From Pantoea sp. alder81 (GTDB lineage Bacteria > Pseudomonadota > Gammaproteobacteria > Enterobacterales > Enterobacteriaceae): a stretch of DNA of 64,000 nt. Positions 53,120 through 59,032 of the stretch are shown here, piece after piece. The first letter of the stretch is position 1. Every line of letters begins with the position of its first letter. A model generated the notes under the pieces. The model was not told the DNA's origin. It did no database searches and worked only from the letters and a program-made list of their open reading frames with translations. The DNA is taken from NCBI RefSeq assembly GCF_020179835.1, contig NZ_JAIUDA010000001.1:682001-746000 (forward strand), in the 5' to 3' direction. Both the position numbers and the translations under genes were made by a program.

Positions 53120-54301
53120 GTGGAGCATCACCCTAAACCTGCGGTTCCTGCCATCGTGACACTCGGATGGGTTCAAATCCTGTCGTGGGGCGGCTCGTTT
53201 TATCTCATGGCCGTGATGGCGAATCCGATTGTGGCGGAAACCGGCTGGTCGCAGCAGTGGGTATATGGCGCATTGTCTTTGGGCATTTTGGTTTCTGGCC
53301 TGTTAGCACCCTTAAGTGGCCGCCTGATTGCGGGCAGTTATGGCCGCGTACTACTGGCGTCGAGCGGGGCGGTGATGGCGCTGGGCCTGGTCATCATGGG
53401 ATTAAGCCACCATCTGCTGCTGTTCCTCTTTGCCTGGCTGATTATCGGCATTGGAATGGCGATGGGTTTATACGACTCCCTGTTTGCCACCCTCGGAACG
53501 CTTTACGGTGGACAGGCTCGCGGGGCAATTACCGGTATTACCCTCATCTCCGGCTTTTGCACCACGCTGGTATGGCCGGGCACCGCGCTGCTCATCCATT
53601 GGCTTGACTGGCGCGGCGCCTGTTTCGCCATTGCCGCACTGTTATGCCTGACCGTGCTGCCTGCGTATTGGTATGCACTGCCTGCGCCTGTTAAGCCTAT
53701 TGCGAAAGTCGCGGCGAAGCGCAGTAACAATACGGGTGATTTGGCACCGTCGCTCTTTTGGTTGTTATGCAGCATTTTTACCCTCGCTTCGGTGATTATG
53801 ACCGCTATTTCGGTGCAGTTAATCAGTTTGTTACAAGCCAGCGGTCACTCATTGACTGCCGCCTTAGCCATCAGCGCGATTCTGGGCCCTTGTCAGGTTG
53901 GCTCGCGGATCGTGGATATCGCGTTTAAACGGGGACATCCGATTTGGACGACATTTTTCTCGGTAGGATTAGTGGCGTTAGGGCTGCTGCTGCTGACCCT
54001 CTATCCGCAGTTCGCACTGGTCAGCATGGTGCTCTATGGTGCAGGAAATGGACTGCGTGCGATTGTACGGGGAACTTTACCGCTGGTGATGGTCAAACCA
54101 GAGGCCTACGCCATTGTGGTAGGGCGCATGGCGCGCCCTGCACTGATTGGCCAGGCATTAACGCCGCTGGTAGGGGGATATGTTTTTCAGCAGCTCGGGG
54201 CGAATGCCACATTATGGCTGCTGTGCTTGTTGGCGTTAGTGAACGTGTTGCTGGTGGGGGTGCTGAAGCAAAAATTGCCTGCGCTCAAGCCGCAAACGTA
54301 A
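53120..54301 (+). CDS. MFS transporter, substrate unknown
   Basis: A 393-residue protein with 12 predicted membrane helices and a GTG start. The first helix region reads GWVQILSWGGSFYLMAVMANPI, with GRLIAGSYGRVLLASSGAVMALG forming the loop 2-3 region. It resembles the small group of MFS permeases found beside regulators and oxidoreductases, but I cannot name a substrate. It lies between tus and an Rrf2-type gene; E. coli has rstB next to tus instead. Confidence 0.82.
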   Translation: MEHHPKPAVPAIVTLGWVQILSWGGSFYLMAVMANPIVAETGWSQQWVYGALSLGILVSGLLAPLSGRLIAGSYGRVLLASSGAVMALGLVIMGLSHHLLLFLFAWLIIGIGMAMGLYDSLFATLGTLYGGQARGAITGITLISGFCTTLVWPGTALLIHWLDWRGACFAIAALLCLTVLPAYWYALPAPVKPIAKVAAKRSNNTGDLAPSLFWLLCSIFTLASVIMTAISVQLISLLQASGHSLTAALAISAILGPCQVGSRIVDIAFKRGHPIWTTFFSVGLVALGLLLLTLYPQFALVSMVLYGAGNGLRAIVRGTLPLVMVKPEAYAIVVGRMARPALIGQALTPLVGGYVFQQLGANATLWLLCLLALVNVLLVGVLKQKLPALKPQT

Positions 54302-54478
54302 AAGGGAGCAGTAAACTAAGCAGCCTGTGCGCTTCTGTCTGATCAAATGATGAATACGTGCCTTGATCACAGTCGCTGGCTTCTAAAAAGCAACAGTGTT
54401 TGTTATATTTATTGCTCATTGATTACTCACTGCCGCGGCATAAAAACAATAAGATAAACCGCAACTCAGGATACAGAA

Positions 54479-54964
54479 ATGCTTGATTACCGCTTCCCGA
54501 CAGCTTTGCAGATGGTTTTGAGCGTAGCGATGGCGGAGCAACTGGGCAAACGCTCGACCAGTGCTATTTTGGCGTATGGTCTTGAAGCGAACCCCAGTTT
54601 CATTCGAAAACTGATGGTTCCGTTAACGCGCGATGGCATCATTGTCTCTACGCTTGGCCGTACCGGTTCGATTCATCTCGGTCGTACAGCCGCGGAGATT
54701 ACGCTGCGCGATATTTATACTTCTGTGATCGAAGATAAAAAACTCTGGGCTTCGCGTCCGGATGTGGCACCGCGCTGTCTGGTGAGTGCCAACCTGTGCT
54801 GGTACTTCAAATCGATTGCTGAAGAGGCGGAAGAAGCCTCGCTGAAAGTGCTTGAGACGCGCACCGTGGCCGACGCGCTGGCTGAGTTGAAGAAACACGA
54901 TACCAGCAGCTGCGATGAACTGCCCGATCTCGAAATTGAAGACCTCTGCAAAAAATCCCGCTGA
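54479..54964 (+). CDS. Rrf2-family transcriptional regulator
   Basis: A 161-residue Rrf2 protein with an N-terminal winged HTH (YRFPTALQMVLSVAMAEQLG ... NPSFIRKLMVPLTRDGII) followed by the wing RTGSIHLGRTAAEITLRDIY. Cysteines at residues 100, 107, 145 and 157 could bind an Fe-S cluster or sense redox state, but their spacing differs from IscR (92, 98, 104). Its nearest neighbours are the MFS gene upstream (177-base gap) and the converging methionine-rich peptide gene. Target genes are unknown. Confidence 0.85.
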   Translation: MLDYRFPTALQMVLSVAMAEQLGKRSTSAILAYGLEANPSFIRKLMVPLTRDGIIVSTLGRTGSIHLGRTAAEITLRDIYTSVIEDKKLWASRPDVAPRCLVSANLCWYFKSIAEEAEEASLKVLETRTVADALAELKKHDTSSCDELPDLEIEDLCKKSR

Positions 54965-55009
54965 AATCAGTAAAACGGTTACCGGACATCAGCCCGGTAA
55001 CCCGCATTT

Positions 55010-55264
55010 TTACTTAGACATTCCGTCTTTAGACATCTCATCTTTCGCCATGCCATCTTTAGACATACCATCTTTAGACATGCCGTCTTTCTTCATGCTG
55101 TCATGTTTCTTCATCGGTTTTTTCATGTGCTCTTTCTTCATGCCATCGTGCGACATACCGCTTTCATTTTGCATGCCATCTTTTGCCATGTTATCGGCTG
55201 CATAAGCGCCAGAGAAAGCCATTAACATTGCGCCAGCCAATACAGTTGCAATAACGTTTTTCAT
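55010..55264 (-). CDS. Methionine-rich MXKDX-repeat periplasmic peptide (MrpX-like)
   Basis: An 84-residue precursor with a signal peptide ending at AYA-A (residue 22). The 62-residue mature part contains 12 methionines, spaced mostly every five residues in an MSKDG-type repeat, and is otherwise Lys/Asp/Gly-rich with no cysteine. It matches the pentapeptide MXKDX repeat family; the best-known member, MrpX of Azospira, is a sacrificial methionine sink for hypochlorite. It is the last gene after the molybdoenzyme and cytochrome b on the same strand, 26 bases from the former. Confidence 0.85.
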   Translation of the reverse strand: MKNVIATVLAGAMLMAFSGAYAADNMAKDGMQNESGMSHDGMKKEHMKKPMKKHDSMKKDGMSKDGMSKDGMAKDEMSKDGMSK

Positions 55265-55290
55265 CTTAACTTCCTTTCAGGTTGAGGGTA

Positions 55291-56079
55291 TTAACTGCCG
55301 CCGAACCAGTTGTAGCCCTGATCTTCCCAGTAGCCACCGGTAAAGCGGTTGGTGATTTCAATCGAAACAATATGCTTCGGGTTTTTATAGCCAAGTTTTG
55401 TCGGAATGCGCAGTTTCATTGGATAACCGTATTTCGGCGGTAATATGCGCCCATCCCAACTCAGTGCCAATAACGTTTGCGGATGCAATGCGGTCGCCAT
55501 ATCAATACTGGTGTAATAATCATCCGCACAGCGGAAGCTGACATATTTCGCTTTGGTATCAGCCCCAATAAGTTGCAGAAAATCACTGAATCGCACACCG
55601 CCCCAGCGGCCAATTGCACTCCATCCTTCAACACATATATGACGGGTGATTTGTTCATGCTGCGATAGCTTATATAACTCAGGAAGTCGCCAGCTGCGTT
55701 TATCACGTACCAGCCCGATAATCTGCAACTGGTAATCATCCCCGGTTACCTGCGGAATATCTTCTTCGCCATAAAAGGCATTAAACGGAAACGGGCGTGT
55801 AATATCTTGCAAAGTATATTCCGGCGCCATCTGATGTCCGTTGAATAACCATCCCTGAACGCGATCGTTAAAACGGGACATGCGATTCAATACGTTTTCA
55901 ACATCCGGATTGTCATCCAGATCGCAACCGCTGAGCATCGCCACGCCACCAAGGGTTAACCCCAGTCGAAGAAAATGACGGCGGGAGTGCCCCGACAACT
56001 TTTTTGCCAGTAAGGCTTGCGCGTCTTTAACCAGGTGTGAAGCATCGCTGGCAGTGAGCGCAATGGGTTTCTTTTCCAT
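55291..56079 (-). CDS. Tat-exported molybdopterin oxidoreductase (sulfite oxidase/MsrP family)
   Basis: A 262-residue protein. A twin-arginine motif SRRHFLRL (Arg33-Arg34) is followed by a hydrophobic stretch and a lipobox-like LSGC (Cys52), so it may be a Tat-exported lipoprotein. The sulfite-oxidase fold shows the molybdenum-cysteine segment HICVEGWSAIGRWGGVRF (Cys149) and the late KYGYPMKLRIPTKLGYKNPK motif. The start at 56079 follows GAGG with a 6-base spacer; a longer frame upstream overlaps the cytochrome b gene. It probably takes electrons from the adjacent cytochrome b to reduce an oxidised periplasmic substrate. Confidence 0.85.
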   Translation of the reverse strand: MEKKPIALTASDASHLVKDAQALLAKKLSGHSRRHFLRLGLTLGGVAMLSGCDLDDNPDVENVLNRMSRFNDRVQGWLFNGHQMAPEYTLQDITRPFPFNAFYGEEDIPQVTGDDYQLQIIGLVRDKRSWRLPELYKLSQHEQITRHICVEGWSAIGRWGGVRFSDFLQLIGADTKAKYVSFRCADDYYTSIDMATALHPQTLLALSWDGRILPPKYGYPMKLRIPTKLGYKNPKHIVSIEITNRFTGGYWEDQGYNWFGGS

Positions 56080-56087
56080 TTTCATCC

Positions 56088-56687
56088 TCAGCGCCCACGA
56101 GTGATCAGCAACAGCGTTTTGGGAACCAGTGCTACCATCACCAGATGAATGACAAAGAACATGCATAAAAAGGACATTGCGCCGAAATGTATTAATCGAG
56201 CAGTGTCATATCCGCCTAATAATTCACGCAGCAGCGAAAACTGGACTGATTTCCATAGCACGAGTCCAGAGGCTACTAATAAAATGCCGTCAACAGTCAC
56301 CAATAAATACGCAAATTTTTGCACCATATTATAATGACGCAGGTCGTGGTGATCGAGTCGGCCCCTTAATGCAGCGAAAGCGTCTTTAAAAAGTTGCGTG
56401 ATACTCAGCGGCAAGAAACGTTGCCTGAAGCGGCCACTGAAGAGATTCATGACCAGATAAAACACACCATTCAGGCCGAATATCCACATTACGGCAAAAT
56501 GCCACTGCAACGCGCCACCCAGCCATCCTCCTAACGTATAAGGATTAGGAAAAGAGAAGGGGAATAAGGGTGACGCGTTATAAATGCGCCATCCACTTAG
56601 AATCATCATGATAATGGCGGCGGCATTTATCCAGTGACACACTCTCAACCACAGCGGATGAACAGGTCGACCCGATGCTGTTTTCAT
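56088..56687 (-). CDS. Membrane cytochrome b (thiosulfate reductase/b561 type)
   Basis: A 199-residue inner-membrane protein with about four to five helices. Histidines suited to bind heme b lie at 18 (VCHWINAA), 63 (QWHFAVMW), 167 (LIHFGAM) and 181 (VIHLVM). This pattern fits the cytochrome b/b561 family that pairs with periplasmic molybdoenzymes, rather than the MsrQ/YedZ ferric-reductase type. It is the first gene of the leftward three-gene group and lies 8 bases from the molybdoenzyme gene. Confidence 0.85.
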   Translation of the reverse strand: MKTASGRPVHPLWLRVCHWINAAAIIMMILSGWRIYNASPLFPFSFPNPYTLGGWLGGALQWHFAVMWIFGLNGVFYLVMNLFSGRFRQRFLPLSITQLFKDAFAALRGRLDHHDLRHYNMVQKFAYLLVTVDGILLVASGLVLWKSVQFSLLRELLGGYDTARLIHFGAMSFLCMFFVIHLVMVALVPKTLLLITRGR

Positions 56688-56840
56688 TCTTTACCTCTGC
56701 ATATCGCTATGCTGTTCGGAATGATGACAGAGTGCCCGTTTATTGATCACGGAATCCTCACGCAGAGTTAAACAAAATGTGATAACTCCAACGGGCGATT
56801 CTGTATAAGATTAAAAAAGAGGTTCATTGAGGCGGTAAAC

Positions 56841-57560
56841 ATGGCGAAGAAGATCTTAATCGTTGAAGACGATGGCAATATTGCGGAGCTGTTAAACATT
56901 CACCTGCGCGATGAAGGCTTTGATATTACGCATGCTGCGGATGGTGACATGGGCAGTCAATTGCTGGAAAGCCAACGCTGGGATGCGCTGATCTTCGACA
57001 TTATGCTGCCCGGCGTCGACGGACTGGAGTTATGTCGCCGCGCGCGCAATATGCCGCATTACACGCCGATTGTGATGATCAGCGCCCGCGCCAGTGAAGT
57101 GCATCGTGTACTGGGGCTTGAACTGGGCGCGGATGATTACCTGACCAAACCCTTTTCCATGCTGGAACTTGTCGCTCGCGTGAAGGCGTTATTTCGTCGA
57201 CAAGAAGCGATGAGCCAGAATATGCGTCAGGACGCGGGAAACCTGCGTCTCGGCACGCTGAGTATCGATCCCGTCGCCCGTGAAGTTCACCTCAATCAGC
57301 TACCGATTGAGCTGACGCCGCGCGAATTCGAGCTGCTGTACCACTTCGCCCGTCACCCCGGCAAAGTCTTCTCGCGGTTGAGCCTGCTCAATTTGGTCTG
57401 GGGCTACCAGCACGAAGGTTATGAGCACACGGTGAATACCCATATCAACCGTCTTCGTTTGAAGATCGAAGCGACACCGGCCGAACCGCGCTGGATCCTC
57501 ACCGTGTGGGGGCAGGGATATAAGTTCGTGGTGCCCGAAGAGGGAGAGCATGCCAGATGA
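56841..57560 (+). CDS. OmpR-family response regulator
   Basis: A 239-residue response regulator. The receiver has the acidic pair Asp10-Asp11, phosphorylation site Asp53 (FDIMLPGVDG) and KPFS lysine; the C-terminal winged helix (about 135-235) includes LTPREFELLYHFARHPGKVFSRLSLLNLVWGY. It is divergent from cytochrome b across 153 bases, so it probably controls that operon. It overlaps the sensor gene by 4 bases. It is not RstA, which sits near tus in E. coli. Confidence 0.9.
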   Translation: MAKKILIVEDDGNIAELLNIHLRDEGFDITHAADGDMGSQLLESQRWDALIFDIMLPGVDGLELCRRARNMPHYTPIVMISARASEVHRVLGLELGADDYLTKPFSMLELVARVKALFRRQEAMSQNMRQDAGNLRLGTLSIDPVAREVHLNQLPIELTPREFELLYHFARHPGKVFSRLSLLNLVWGYQHEGYEHTVNTHINRLRLKIEATPAEPRWILTVWGQGYKFVVPEEGEHAR

Positions 57561-58999
57561 AGCGTCTCTCTCTCACCCAACGACTGACGCTGGTGTTTGC
57601 TTTGATGCTGGTGATCAGCAGTGCGCTGATTTTGGTTATTCAGGATCAAAACCGTAAGCAGTACAGCGATGCGATGATGCAGAACCTGTCGCGCAATTTG
57701 GCCAGTTCAATCGCCAAAAGCAGCGTGCTGATGAATGCCGAAGGCACCGCGCGTCCGGCGTTGAAACAGCTGTTTGGTCAGATGATGTCGTATAACCCGA
57801 GCGTGGAAGTCTATCTGCTGGATACGCAAGGCCGCATTTTGGCCAACGACGCGCCGGTTGGGCACCTGCATCGACAACAAATTGATGTCCGTTCGGTACA
57901 AAAGTTACTGCAGGGTGCTGCTTTGCCTGTGTACGGCGACGACCCTCGTTCTCTGGCCGACAAAAAAGTGTTCAGTGCCGCGCCCATACAGGATGGAAAT
58001 CGCACCCTTGGTTATCTGTATGTGATTTTGCAGGGTGAGAATTATCAACAGTTACAGCAGGGTGTGCTGACCTCGGTATTGCGCAGTTCGATGTTGTGGT
58101 CAGTGGTGGTGATCATCTTATGCGGGCTGATTGCGGGCGGATGCGCCTATTACTGGGTCACGCGACCGGTCAGAAAACTGACGCAACAAGTGGTCTCACG
58201 CGAGGATGCGCTGGAGCATTTTGCAGCGCTGCCTTATTCAACATCACAGGATGAAGTCGCGCAGTTGCACAATGCCTTTATTGATATGGCGAAGCGTATT
58301 GCAATGCAGGTTCAGGCGTTAGAGTTGAAAGACCAGCAGCGCCGTGAGTTTGTCGCCAACATCTCTCACGATCTGCGTACCCCGTTGATGTCGATTCAGG
58401 GTTATCTTGAAACTTTGTCGGTGAAAGCCAACAGTCTGACTGACGCAGAGCGCAGTCGCTATCTGCAGATCGCGCTGACGCAAAGTGAGAAGGTGGGCAT
58501 GCTGGCGCAACAGCTGTTCGAGCTTGCGCGTCTGGAGCACGGCGTGGTGACACCGCAGTGTGAGCGGTTCTCTCTGCCCGATTTGGTGCAGGATGTATTA
58601 CAGAAATTCGAGTTGCCTTTCGATAACGCGCAGCTGCAGTTTGCCGTAGACATTCAACCCGGTTTACCGATGATTGATGCTGATATGTCGATGATTGAAC
58701 GGGTGCTGACCAATCTGATCGACAACGCCATCCGTCATACGCCACTCGGCGGCAACATTACTCTGCGTATCTGGAGTGAGGATCAAAAAGTGATGCTGGA
58801 GCTGGAAGACAGCGGTCCTGGCATCTCTTACGAGTTAAGTCAGACGTTGTTTGAACGGCCCTCGATCATCGATACCAACCGTCGCGATAATGGCGGTTTA
58901 GGCCTGGTGATTGTCAGACGCATGTTGCAACTGCATCGTGGCGATATCGTACTGAAAAAAGCGCCGGGTGCCTGCTTCCAGCTCTTCGTTCCCCAATAA
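57557..58999 (+). CDS. Membrane sensor histidine kinase
   Basis: A 480-residue kinase with helices at about 10-30 and 178-200 enclosing a periplasmic sensor of about 145 residues, a HAMP domain (about 200-255), the H-box FVANISHDLRTPLMSIQGYLETL with His271, and an ATPase with NLIDNAIRHTP (N-box) and DSGPGIS (G1). The G2 region NRRDNGGLGLVIVRRM is present. It partners the regulator that ends 4 bases into its start and is followed by a terminator. Signal unknown; the genetic context suggests a periplasmic oxidative stress. Confidence 0.88.
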   Translation: MKRLSLTQRLTLVFALMLVISSALILVIQDQNRKQYSDAMMQNLSRNLASSIAKSSVLMNAEGTARPALKQLFGQMMSYNPSVEVYLLDTQGRILANDAPVGHLHRQQIDVRSVQKLLQGAALPVYGDDPRSLADKKVFSAAPIQDGNRTLGYLYVILQGENYQQLQQGVLTSVLRSSMLWSVVVIILCGLIAGGCAYYWVTRPVRKLTQQVVSREDALEHFAALPYSTSQDEVAQLHNAFIDMAKRIAMQVQALELKDQQRREFVANISHDLRTPLMSIQGYLETLSVKANSLTDAERSRYLQIALTQSEKVGMLAQQLFELARLEHGVVTPQCERFSLPDLVQDVLQKFELPFDNAQLQFAVDIQPGLPMIDADMSMIERVLTNLIDNAIRHTPLGGNITLRIWSEDQKVMLELEDSGPGISYELSQTLFERPSIIDTNRRDNGGLGLVIVRRMLQLHRGDIVLKKAPGACFQLFVPQ

Positions 59000-59032
59000 A
59001 AAAGGGGCGGTCTGTGAAGACCGCCCCTGTTT
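59000..59032. terminator. Bidirectional terminator between the sensor kinase and oqxB
   Basis: GGGGCGGTC-TGTGAA-GACCGCCCC (59004-59027) with an A-run on the left and a short T-run on the right, between converging genes. Confidence 0.92.

Follow-up and report, generated by a model that had tools for sequence, protein, structure and literature searches.

A likely quinol-driven oxidant sink in Pantoea sp. alder81: a chromosomal cassette of the OrhKR-c3566-c3568 kind with a predicted lipoprotein molybdoenzyme

Why would a bacterium that encodes the methionine sulfoxide reductase MsrPQ carry a second gene set that looks devoted to periplasmic methionine-oxidation defence? The question is raised by a five-gene cassette at positions 55010-58999 of a 64,000-nucleotide stretch of the Pantoea sp. 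alder81 genome (contig NZ_JAIUDA010000001.1, positions 682,001 to 746,000), hereafter the window. We found all five open reading frames (ORFs) where a first-pass annotation of the sequence had placed them. Three form a leftward operon on the minus strand: a secreted, methionine-rich (Met-rich) MxKDx peptide of 84 amino acids (55010-55264; 62 mature residues, 12 of them Met), a sulfite-oxidase-fold molybdoenzyme (55291-56079) and a cytochrome b (56088-56687). Divergent from them, on the plus strand, lie genes for an OmpR-type, OrhR-like response regulator (56841-57560; PF00072 and PF00486) and an OrhK-like sensor histidine kinase (57557-58999; PF00512 and PF02518). The 26-base gap between enzyme and peptide was confirmed; the 8-base gap reported between cytochrome b and enzyme holds for the ATG at 56079 and shrinks to 2 bases with the alternative ATG at 56085. 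We consider it likely that the cassette is a chromosomal module of the OrhKR-c3566-c3568 kind, that is, a quinol-driven oxidant sink with a recycled Met-rich peptide.

The closest described system is that of uropathogenic Escherichia coli (UPEC) CFT073. There, C3564/C3565 (OrhK/OrhR) are encoded beside a cytochrome b (c3566), a putative sulfoxide reductase (c3567) and a Met-rich peptide (c3568); according to the available part of that report, c3566-c3568 are co-transcribed and induced by tert-butyl hydroperoxide, OrhR binds their promoter, and c3566 and c3567 mutants are oxidant-sensitive (PMC8550376). The oxidants tested in that part are tert-butyl hydroperoxide and macrophage oxidants, not chlorine oxidants. 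The window, CFT073 and E. coli UTI89 agree in all five genes and in gene order, with a divergent regulator-kinase pair and an equally placed predicted operator; the window and the UTI89 copy also have in common the PF01292 family of the electron donor and a lipobox in the enzyme, and the window enzyme is 65% identical to its E. coli counterpart. The first-pass annotation had not seen this combination described in enterics; the claim of novelty fails, since the UPEC orhK/orhR and c3566-c3568 arrangement has been in print since 2021 (PMC8550376). The settings differ: the CFT073 genes lie on a pathogenicity island and are co-transcribed with a downstream virulence operon, whereas the window cassette is chromosomal, between Rrf2 and RND genes. 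A literature search limited to one collection found no two-component version outside E. coli. We therefore present the locus mainly as a new example; what it adds to the published E. coli system is the donor family, the lipoprotein nature of the enzyme, the clade-wise distribution of the peptide, the distant Met-rich partners and a locus in Kozakia. The froABCD genes of Pseudomonas aeruginosa were also considered as a relative; their products are called uncharacterised in the part of the printed source available.

The cassette is a second system, different from the host's own MsrPQ. The 5.6-Mb host genome encodes canonical MsrP and MsrQ on a different contig. The two systems resemble each other in having a sulfite-oxidase-fold enzyme with a Cys ligand to molybdenum and a CVE-x-WS motif, a membrane heme donor and two-component control, which for E. 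coli MsrPQ is exerted by HprSR (PMC10151825, available in part). They differ in that the window enzyme lies under the MsrP cut-off, is a predicted lipoprotein, has a donor from another Pfam family and is accompanied by a dedicated peptide. Membership of MsrPQ was rejected on the basis of the donor (PF01292, not PF01794) and of the MsrP cut-off, which the enzyme does not reach.

What, then, does the enzyme do? It carries a PF00174 domain (108 bits), and its best sequence match is MsrP/YedY; a profile of its family scored 98 bits with MsrP and 71 with SorA. Foldseek likewise ranked MsrP/YedY first when queried with an AlphaFold model of the enzyme (30 alignment rows; pLDDT 76 overall and mostly above 80 in the catalytic part, pTM 0.66). 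The residues shared with MsrP are invariant among 140 distinct relatives: Cys151, the Mo ligand by alignment to MsrP, Glu153, Trp155 and Ser156 were found in every row. From these features we infer that the enzyme reduces methionine sulfoxide. That it is instead a sulfite dehydrogenase feeding electrons into the cytochrome seems very improbable. The fold is shared, and VIA-align scored the model equally against SorA and MsrP; yet Phe104 of the window enzyme aligns where SorA has Arg55 (the residue identified through the R55M entry 2ca3), a position that holds Arg in none and Phe in 120 of the 140 distinct rows, the NCBIfam SorA family gives 45 bits where its cut-off is 600, and the profile comparison given above favors MsrP. 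We rejected this identity on the absence of the sulfite-binding Arg.

The enzyme had been described as Tat-exported to the periplasm. The Tat signal stood, but not the free periplasmic state: the N-terminal Tat signal, RRHFLRLGLTLGGVAMLSG|CD, has a lipobox at its end, and the enzyme is therefore a predicted membrane-anchored lipoprotein. Among the 140 distinct relatives, the first Arg of the twin pair and the Gly-Cys of the lipobox were found in all, and the second Arg in 139, Cys replacing it in locus L143; twin Arg, hydrophobic stretch and lipobox Cys are kept across all three clades of the enzyme tree described below (A, B and C). The residue after the lipobox Cys is Asp in 84 rows, Asn in 54 and Ser in 2. 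In E. coli, Asp following the lipoprotein Cys leads to retention in the inner membrane. The host's own MsrP, with 29% identity to the window enzyme across 167 residues, has a signal region without a lipobox Cys. In a literature search for a sulfoxide reductase of this Tat-lipoprotein type, none of the ten papers listed out of 56 contains 'tat lipoprotein', and in the available part of the CFT073 report 'lipoprotein' is used once, for Pal, and 'Tat' never (PMC8550376).

The cytochrome b is a probable quinol-linked electron donor. It matches PF01292 with 83 bits, and His18, 63, 167 and 181 are present in 155-156 of 157 rows, a pattern as expected for a protein that would bind two hemes. In structural searches with its model (pLDDT 86), the first matches were FdnI (E 0.004) and HyaC (E 0.017), both with weak E-values; these two are quinone-linked heme-b subunits. 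The host's MsrQ belongs to PF01794, and its BLASTP match to the window cytochrome b was not significant (E 0.14). For CFT073, C3566 is given as 23.1% identical to MsrQ (PMC8550376, available in part). The suggestion that a b561-type donor replaces MsrQ was right as to the family and wrong in treating it as peculiar to this locus. A PF01292 rather than a PF01794 donor is also encoded in the UTI89 locus and in SigF- or NrsF-linked loci of Kozakia, Caballeronia and Burkholderia, and is therefore to be taken as the usual donor of the module; judged from these sequences, it appears to be the rule and not special to the window.

Is the peptide a constant partner of the enzyme? The window peptide matches NCBIfam TIGR02953 (penta_MxKDx) with 60.3 bits (cut-off 41); signal cleavage, after SGAYA, was placed by eye. 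Our main sample comprised the best 80 loci from named genomes, taken from a longer list; it overlaps in part with the genus, family and class samples, so that the counts are not independent. The grouping exceeds chance: the cytochrome b adjoins the enzyme in 80 of the 80 loci. By tblastn the peptide was found beside the enzyme in 78, which becomes 79 of 79 testable loci: L070, whose contig stops 56 bases beyond the part of the enzyme that was matched, was excluded, and L010 was counted as present on the strength of L109, whose contig is equally long and has a Met-rich 104-aa ORF at that place. The two-component pair is present in 41 of the 80 loci and is always divergent; it is lacking in 33 Pseudomonas loci, 3 Edwardsiella loci, L025, L070 and L073, and in two of these 39 (L008 and L080) the upstream sequence was too short to judge. 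An enzyme match was found in 14 of 61 genomes of the window's genus, 42 of 198 of its family and 12 of 369 of its class.

These loci fall into clades in a quick tree of 86 enzymes, whose root, placed on the host's own MsrP with its very long branch, is unsure. Clade A (support 93) holds the window and the peptide-bearing loci, E. coli included. Eleven of the 14 matches in the genus belong to it, all 11 with a Met-rich ORF and a regulator beside the enzyme, and the family loci of clade A that were fetched carry the peptide in 28 of 28 cases and the regulator in 25 of 28. Sister clade B (support 87) contains enzymes 56-61% identical to that of the window, with the cytochrome b present and a different regulator (34-38% identical) nearby in 16 of 21 loci. 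Clade C, whose enzymes are about 40% identical, has unrelated Met-rich proteins upstream of the cytochrome b in 3 of the 10 loci. L206 (4094-8494) encodes a signal-bearing acidic peptide of DGMSHDD repeats, divergent from a kinase and from a regulator with 47% identity to that of the window; L203 (2808-3182) encodes a secreted Met-rich EF-hand protein, and L207 (3040-3183) has a short ORF similar to the latter but lacking a signal. The Met-rich ORF search in clades B and C was run without a lysine requirement, since a filter that asked for lysine did not pick up the peptide of L090 or the acidic one of L096/L206. One copy, L012, is labelled Chryseobacterium; it is of the enteric type, groups beside Citrobacter and is probably a mislabelled or contaminated assembly.

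Several observations weigh against the sink with a recycled peptide. No Met-rich peptide was found in clade B (0 of 21 loci, L144 having only 1.5 kb of flanks), so the enzyme can work without one; under a looser filter, a single match (L156, 772-960), more than 2 kb from the enzyme and lacking a signal-like start, was counted as chance. The published CFT073 phenotypes concern c3566 and c3567, not the peptide (PMC8550376, available in part). The enzyme scores only 81 bits with the MsrP equivalog NF003767, whose cut-off is 207, and by VIA-align its model is tied between SorA and MsrP. The peptides of UTI89, an E. coli plasmid and L087 fall under the TIGR02953 cut-off, and the Burkholderia Met-rich peptide has no TIGR02953 score and is named by no profile. 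It is possible, if doubtful, that the enzyme, like MsrP, serves chiefly in the repair of periplasmic proteins in general, with the peptide as a lesser decoy or signal and not as the principal substrate. Besides clade B, with its cytochrome b and no detected peptide, this alternative draws on the finding that c3566 and c3567 alone restored growth of regulator mutants under tert-butyl hydroperoxide (PMC8550376, available in part). It fits less well with the retention of the peptide beside the clade A enzyme in all testable named loci and all fetched family loci, with the pairing of distant relatives with other Met-rich proteins and with the MsrPQ already encoded by the host. The first-pass annotation had proposed conserved co-occurrence of peptide and enzyme as a check on its reading, and the outcome is split: co-occurrence holds in clade A and fails in clade B.

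The two clade B loci inspected gene by gene, L151 (3369-6183) and L164 (3309-5388), both from enterics, encode a secreted protein adjacent to the cytochrome b and a lipoprotein molybdoenzyme, with no Met-rich peptide; the secreted protein of L151 is a sub-threshold DUF5666 match, and a divergent CusR/HprR-like regulator lies there as well.

Could the cassette serve in copper or other metal stress instead, with a Met- and His-containing peptide that binds Cu(I) and an enzyme that keeps Cu(I) reduced? We regard this as unlikely. A Met-rich sequence would suit such a role, Cys occurs outside the script-cut signal part in 35 of 81 related peptides, and CusR/HprR-like regulators are among the clade B neighbors. 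The window peptide itself, however, has no Cys, no copper transporter or chaperone is found among the genes adjoining the module, and what is in print on the E. coli system, its induction as well as its phenotypes, concerns peroxide (PMC8550376, available in part).

How is the cassette controlled? The regulator is 64% identical to the UTI89 version and 67% to an E. coli plasmid version. Its NCBIfam scores and those of the kinase, among the best 25 of 97 and the best 25 of 83 families, respectively, are all under equivalog cut-offs; for the HprR equivalog the regulator scored 145 bits against 353. The predicted operator published for CFT073, TCACA-N15-TGTGA, lies 5' of the cytochrome gene (PMC8550376, available in part). 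In the window, the predicted operator is TCACG-N15-TGTGA at 56758-56782, equivalent to TCAC-N17-GTGA; the UTI89 copy was counted as N14. A search for TCAC-N14-18-GTGA gave exactly one match in each cytochrome-regulator intergenic region, 44 of 44 (41 genome-contig loci, the window, L084 and L085), 54-82 bases before the regulator gene. The 33-base block around it, CCTCACG.AaagTTAAAtaAAATGTGAtAACTc, is the most conserved stretch of the intergenic region (43 rows of equal site length). Within this block, GTTAAA and GTGATA stand 11 bases apart. This is the spacing of direct repeats bound by OmpR-type regulators, so that the real half-sites are not necessarily the inverted arms. In the divergent intergenic region, the scan for consensus sigma-70 promoters gave none (3 found in the whole stretch, 4.4 expected).

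The host genome contains one perfect match to the operator, in the window, and four further sites with two mismatches, compared with two matches for the reversed control; given the single perfect match, a dedicated regulon is the simplest reading. Control of the host's msrPQ by this regulator was rejected: the nearest two-mismatch site, about 2 kb upstream of the msrP ORF, was taken as chance, and it sits within a 507-aa ORF, which we take to be csrD, beside an MreB-like ORF. HprS senses via periplasmic Met residues (PMC10151825, available in part). In the window kinase, Met77 (57785-57787) is the only Met of the predicted periplasmic part that is invariant, in 44 of 44 homologues, and may be structural.

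The two-component pair is one of at least two kinds of controller. In Azospira suillum, MrpX-YedY1-YedZ1 are under SigF/NrsF, and a Met-rich periplasmic peptide is recycled by a quinol-fed YedY-type reductase (PMC4623255 and PMC5748585, both available in part). Likened by description rather than by sequence comparison, the window resembles this system in having an MXKDX-type Met-rich peptide beside the enzyme; it differs in its two-component pair, with neither an extracytoplasmic function (ECF) sigma factor nor NrsF among the neighbors scanned (53120-58999) or in the RND efflux genes beyond. Brucella melitensis bcrXQP, under BcrS/AbcS, also combines an MXKDX peptide with a putative sulfoxide reductase and is HOCl-induced (PMC8315932, available in part); it differs, by its description, in its ECF sigma control. 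On a plasmid of Kozakia (Acetobacteraceae; L167, 319-4619), we found cytochrome b, enzyme and MXKDX peptide genes and, facing away from them, msrB, msrA and the genes of an ECF sigma factor and NrsF. Of the context evidence pointing to methionine sulfoxide chemistry, this proximity to msrA and msrB is the best. The Caballeronia locus holds peptide, cytochrome b, enzyme and sigma factor, and the Burkholderia locus cytochrome b, enzyme, Met-rich peptide and NrsF; in enteric loci the controller is mostly the OmpR-type pair.

Together, context and sequence support the first-pass reading: a module for defence against methionine oxidation in the periplasm, under a two-component system of its own and with a donor other than MsrQ. 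A recycled-peptide sink could operate as follows. The kinase would sense oxidant in the periplasm, and the regulator, by analogy with the binding and activation known from CFT073, would bind the single conserved operator and activate cytochrome b, enzyme and peptide. The roughly 12 Met of the soluble peptide would take the oxidant first and become sulfoxides, as reported for Azospira MrpX. Tethered to the inner membrane, on its outer face, by a predicted lipoprotein anchor, the enzyme would reduce these sulfoxides with quinol electrons relayed by the cytochrome b. The cell would thus spend respiratory electrons on a catalytic oxidant sink alongside ordinary MsrPQ. A broader proposal, which in our judgment could go either way, is that these Tat-anchored inner-membrane lipoproteins with an FdnI/HyaC-like donor form their own class of periplasmic methionine sulfoxide reductase, distinct from MsrPQ and repeatedly paired with mutually unrelated sacrificial Met-rich proteins (basic MxKDx, acidic DGMSHDD repeats, EF-hand-like) in a quinol-driven sink whose controller is swapped between ECF sigma and two-component systems. 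Should these recurrent pairings prove functional, they would offer a direct route to further sacrificial antioxidant proteins. A system from a pathogenicity island and perchlorate reducers is now placed in many ordinary enterics and can be seen as a compact cassette with a single dedicated operator, and two working assumptions, the MsrQ homology of the donor and an enzyme free in the periplasm, are corrected.

In the region scanned around the cassette (53120-58999), we found genes for an MFS protein and an Rrf2 regulator, with RND efflux genes beyond the kinase. Terminator-like inverted repeats lie 3' of the operon (54977-55002, weak, on both strands) and between the kinase and RND genes (59003-59028, scored on the minus strand and probably shared); the consensus scan found 6 against 3.9 in shuffled sequence, which is weak evidence. 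The GC content is 42-48% in the peptide, enzyme and cytochrome b genes, 53-56% in those of the kinase and regulator and 55% in the window.

The Rrf2 gene was found in 57 of 61 congeners. In the 30 Rrf2 loci fetched, the module is present in 3, RND sequence instead begins within about 1 kb of Rrf2 in 24, and neither is found in 3; congeners G387 and G405 carry the module at another genome location. One of the 24 congeners without the module (L174, 1229-1447) has, between Rrf2 and RND, a piece that matches 53 residues of the kinase with 85% identity; overlapped by a short peptide-like match, it resembles the scar of a deletion. In E. coli, DNA matching part of the module occurs in 351 of 5,426 genomes, none of the matches covering 80%, and 75 of the 364 places are on plasmids. 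One E. coli plasmid carries the whole module between a transposase ORF and IS26 (L085, 87-4663), and similar copies lie on Klebsiella and Shigella plasmids.

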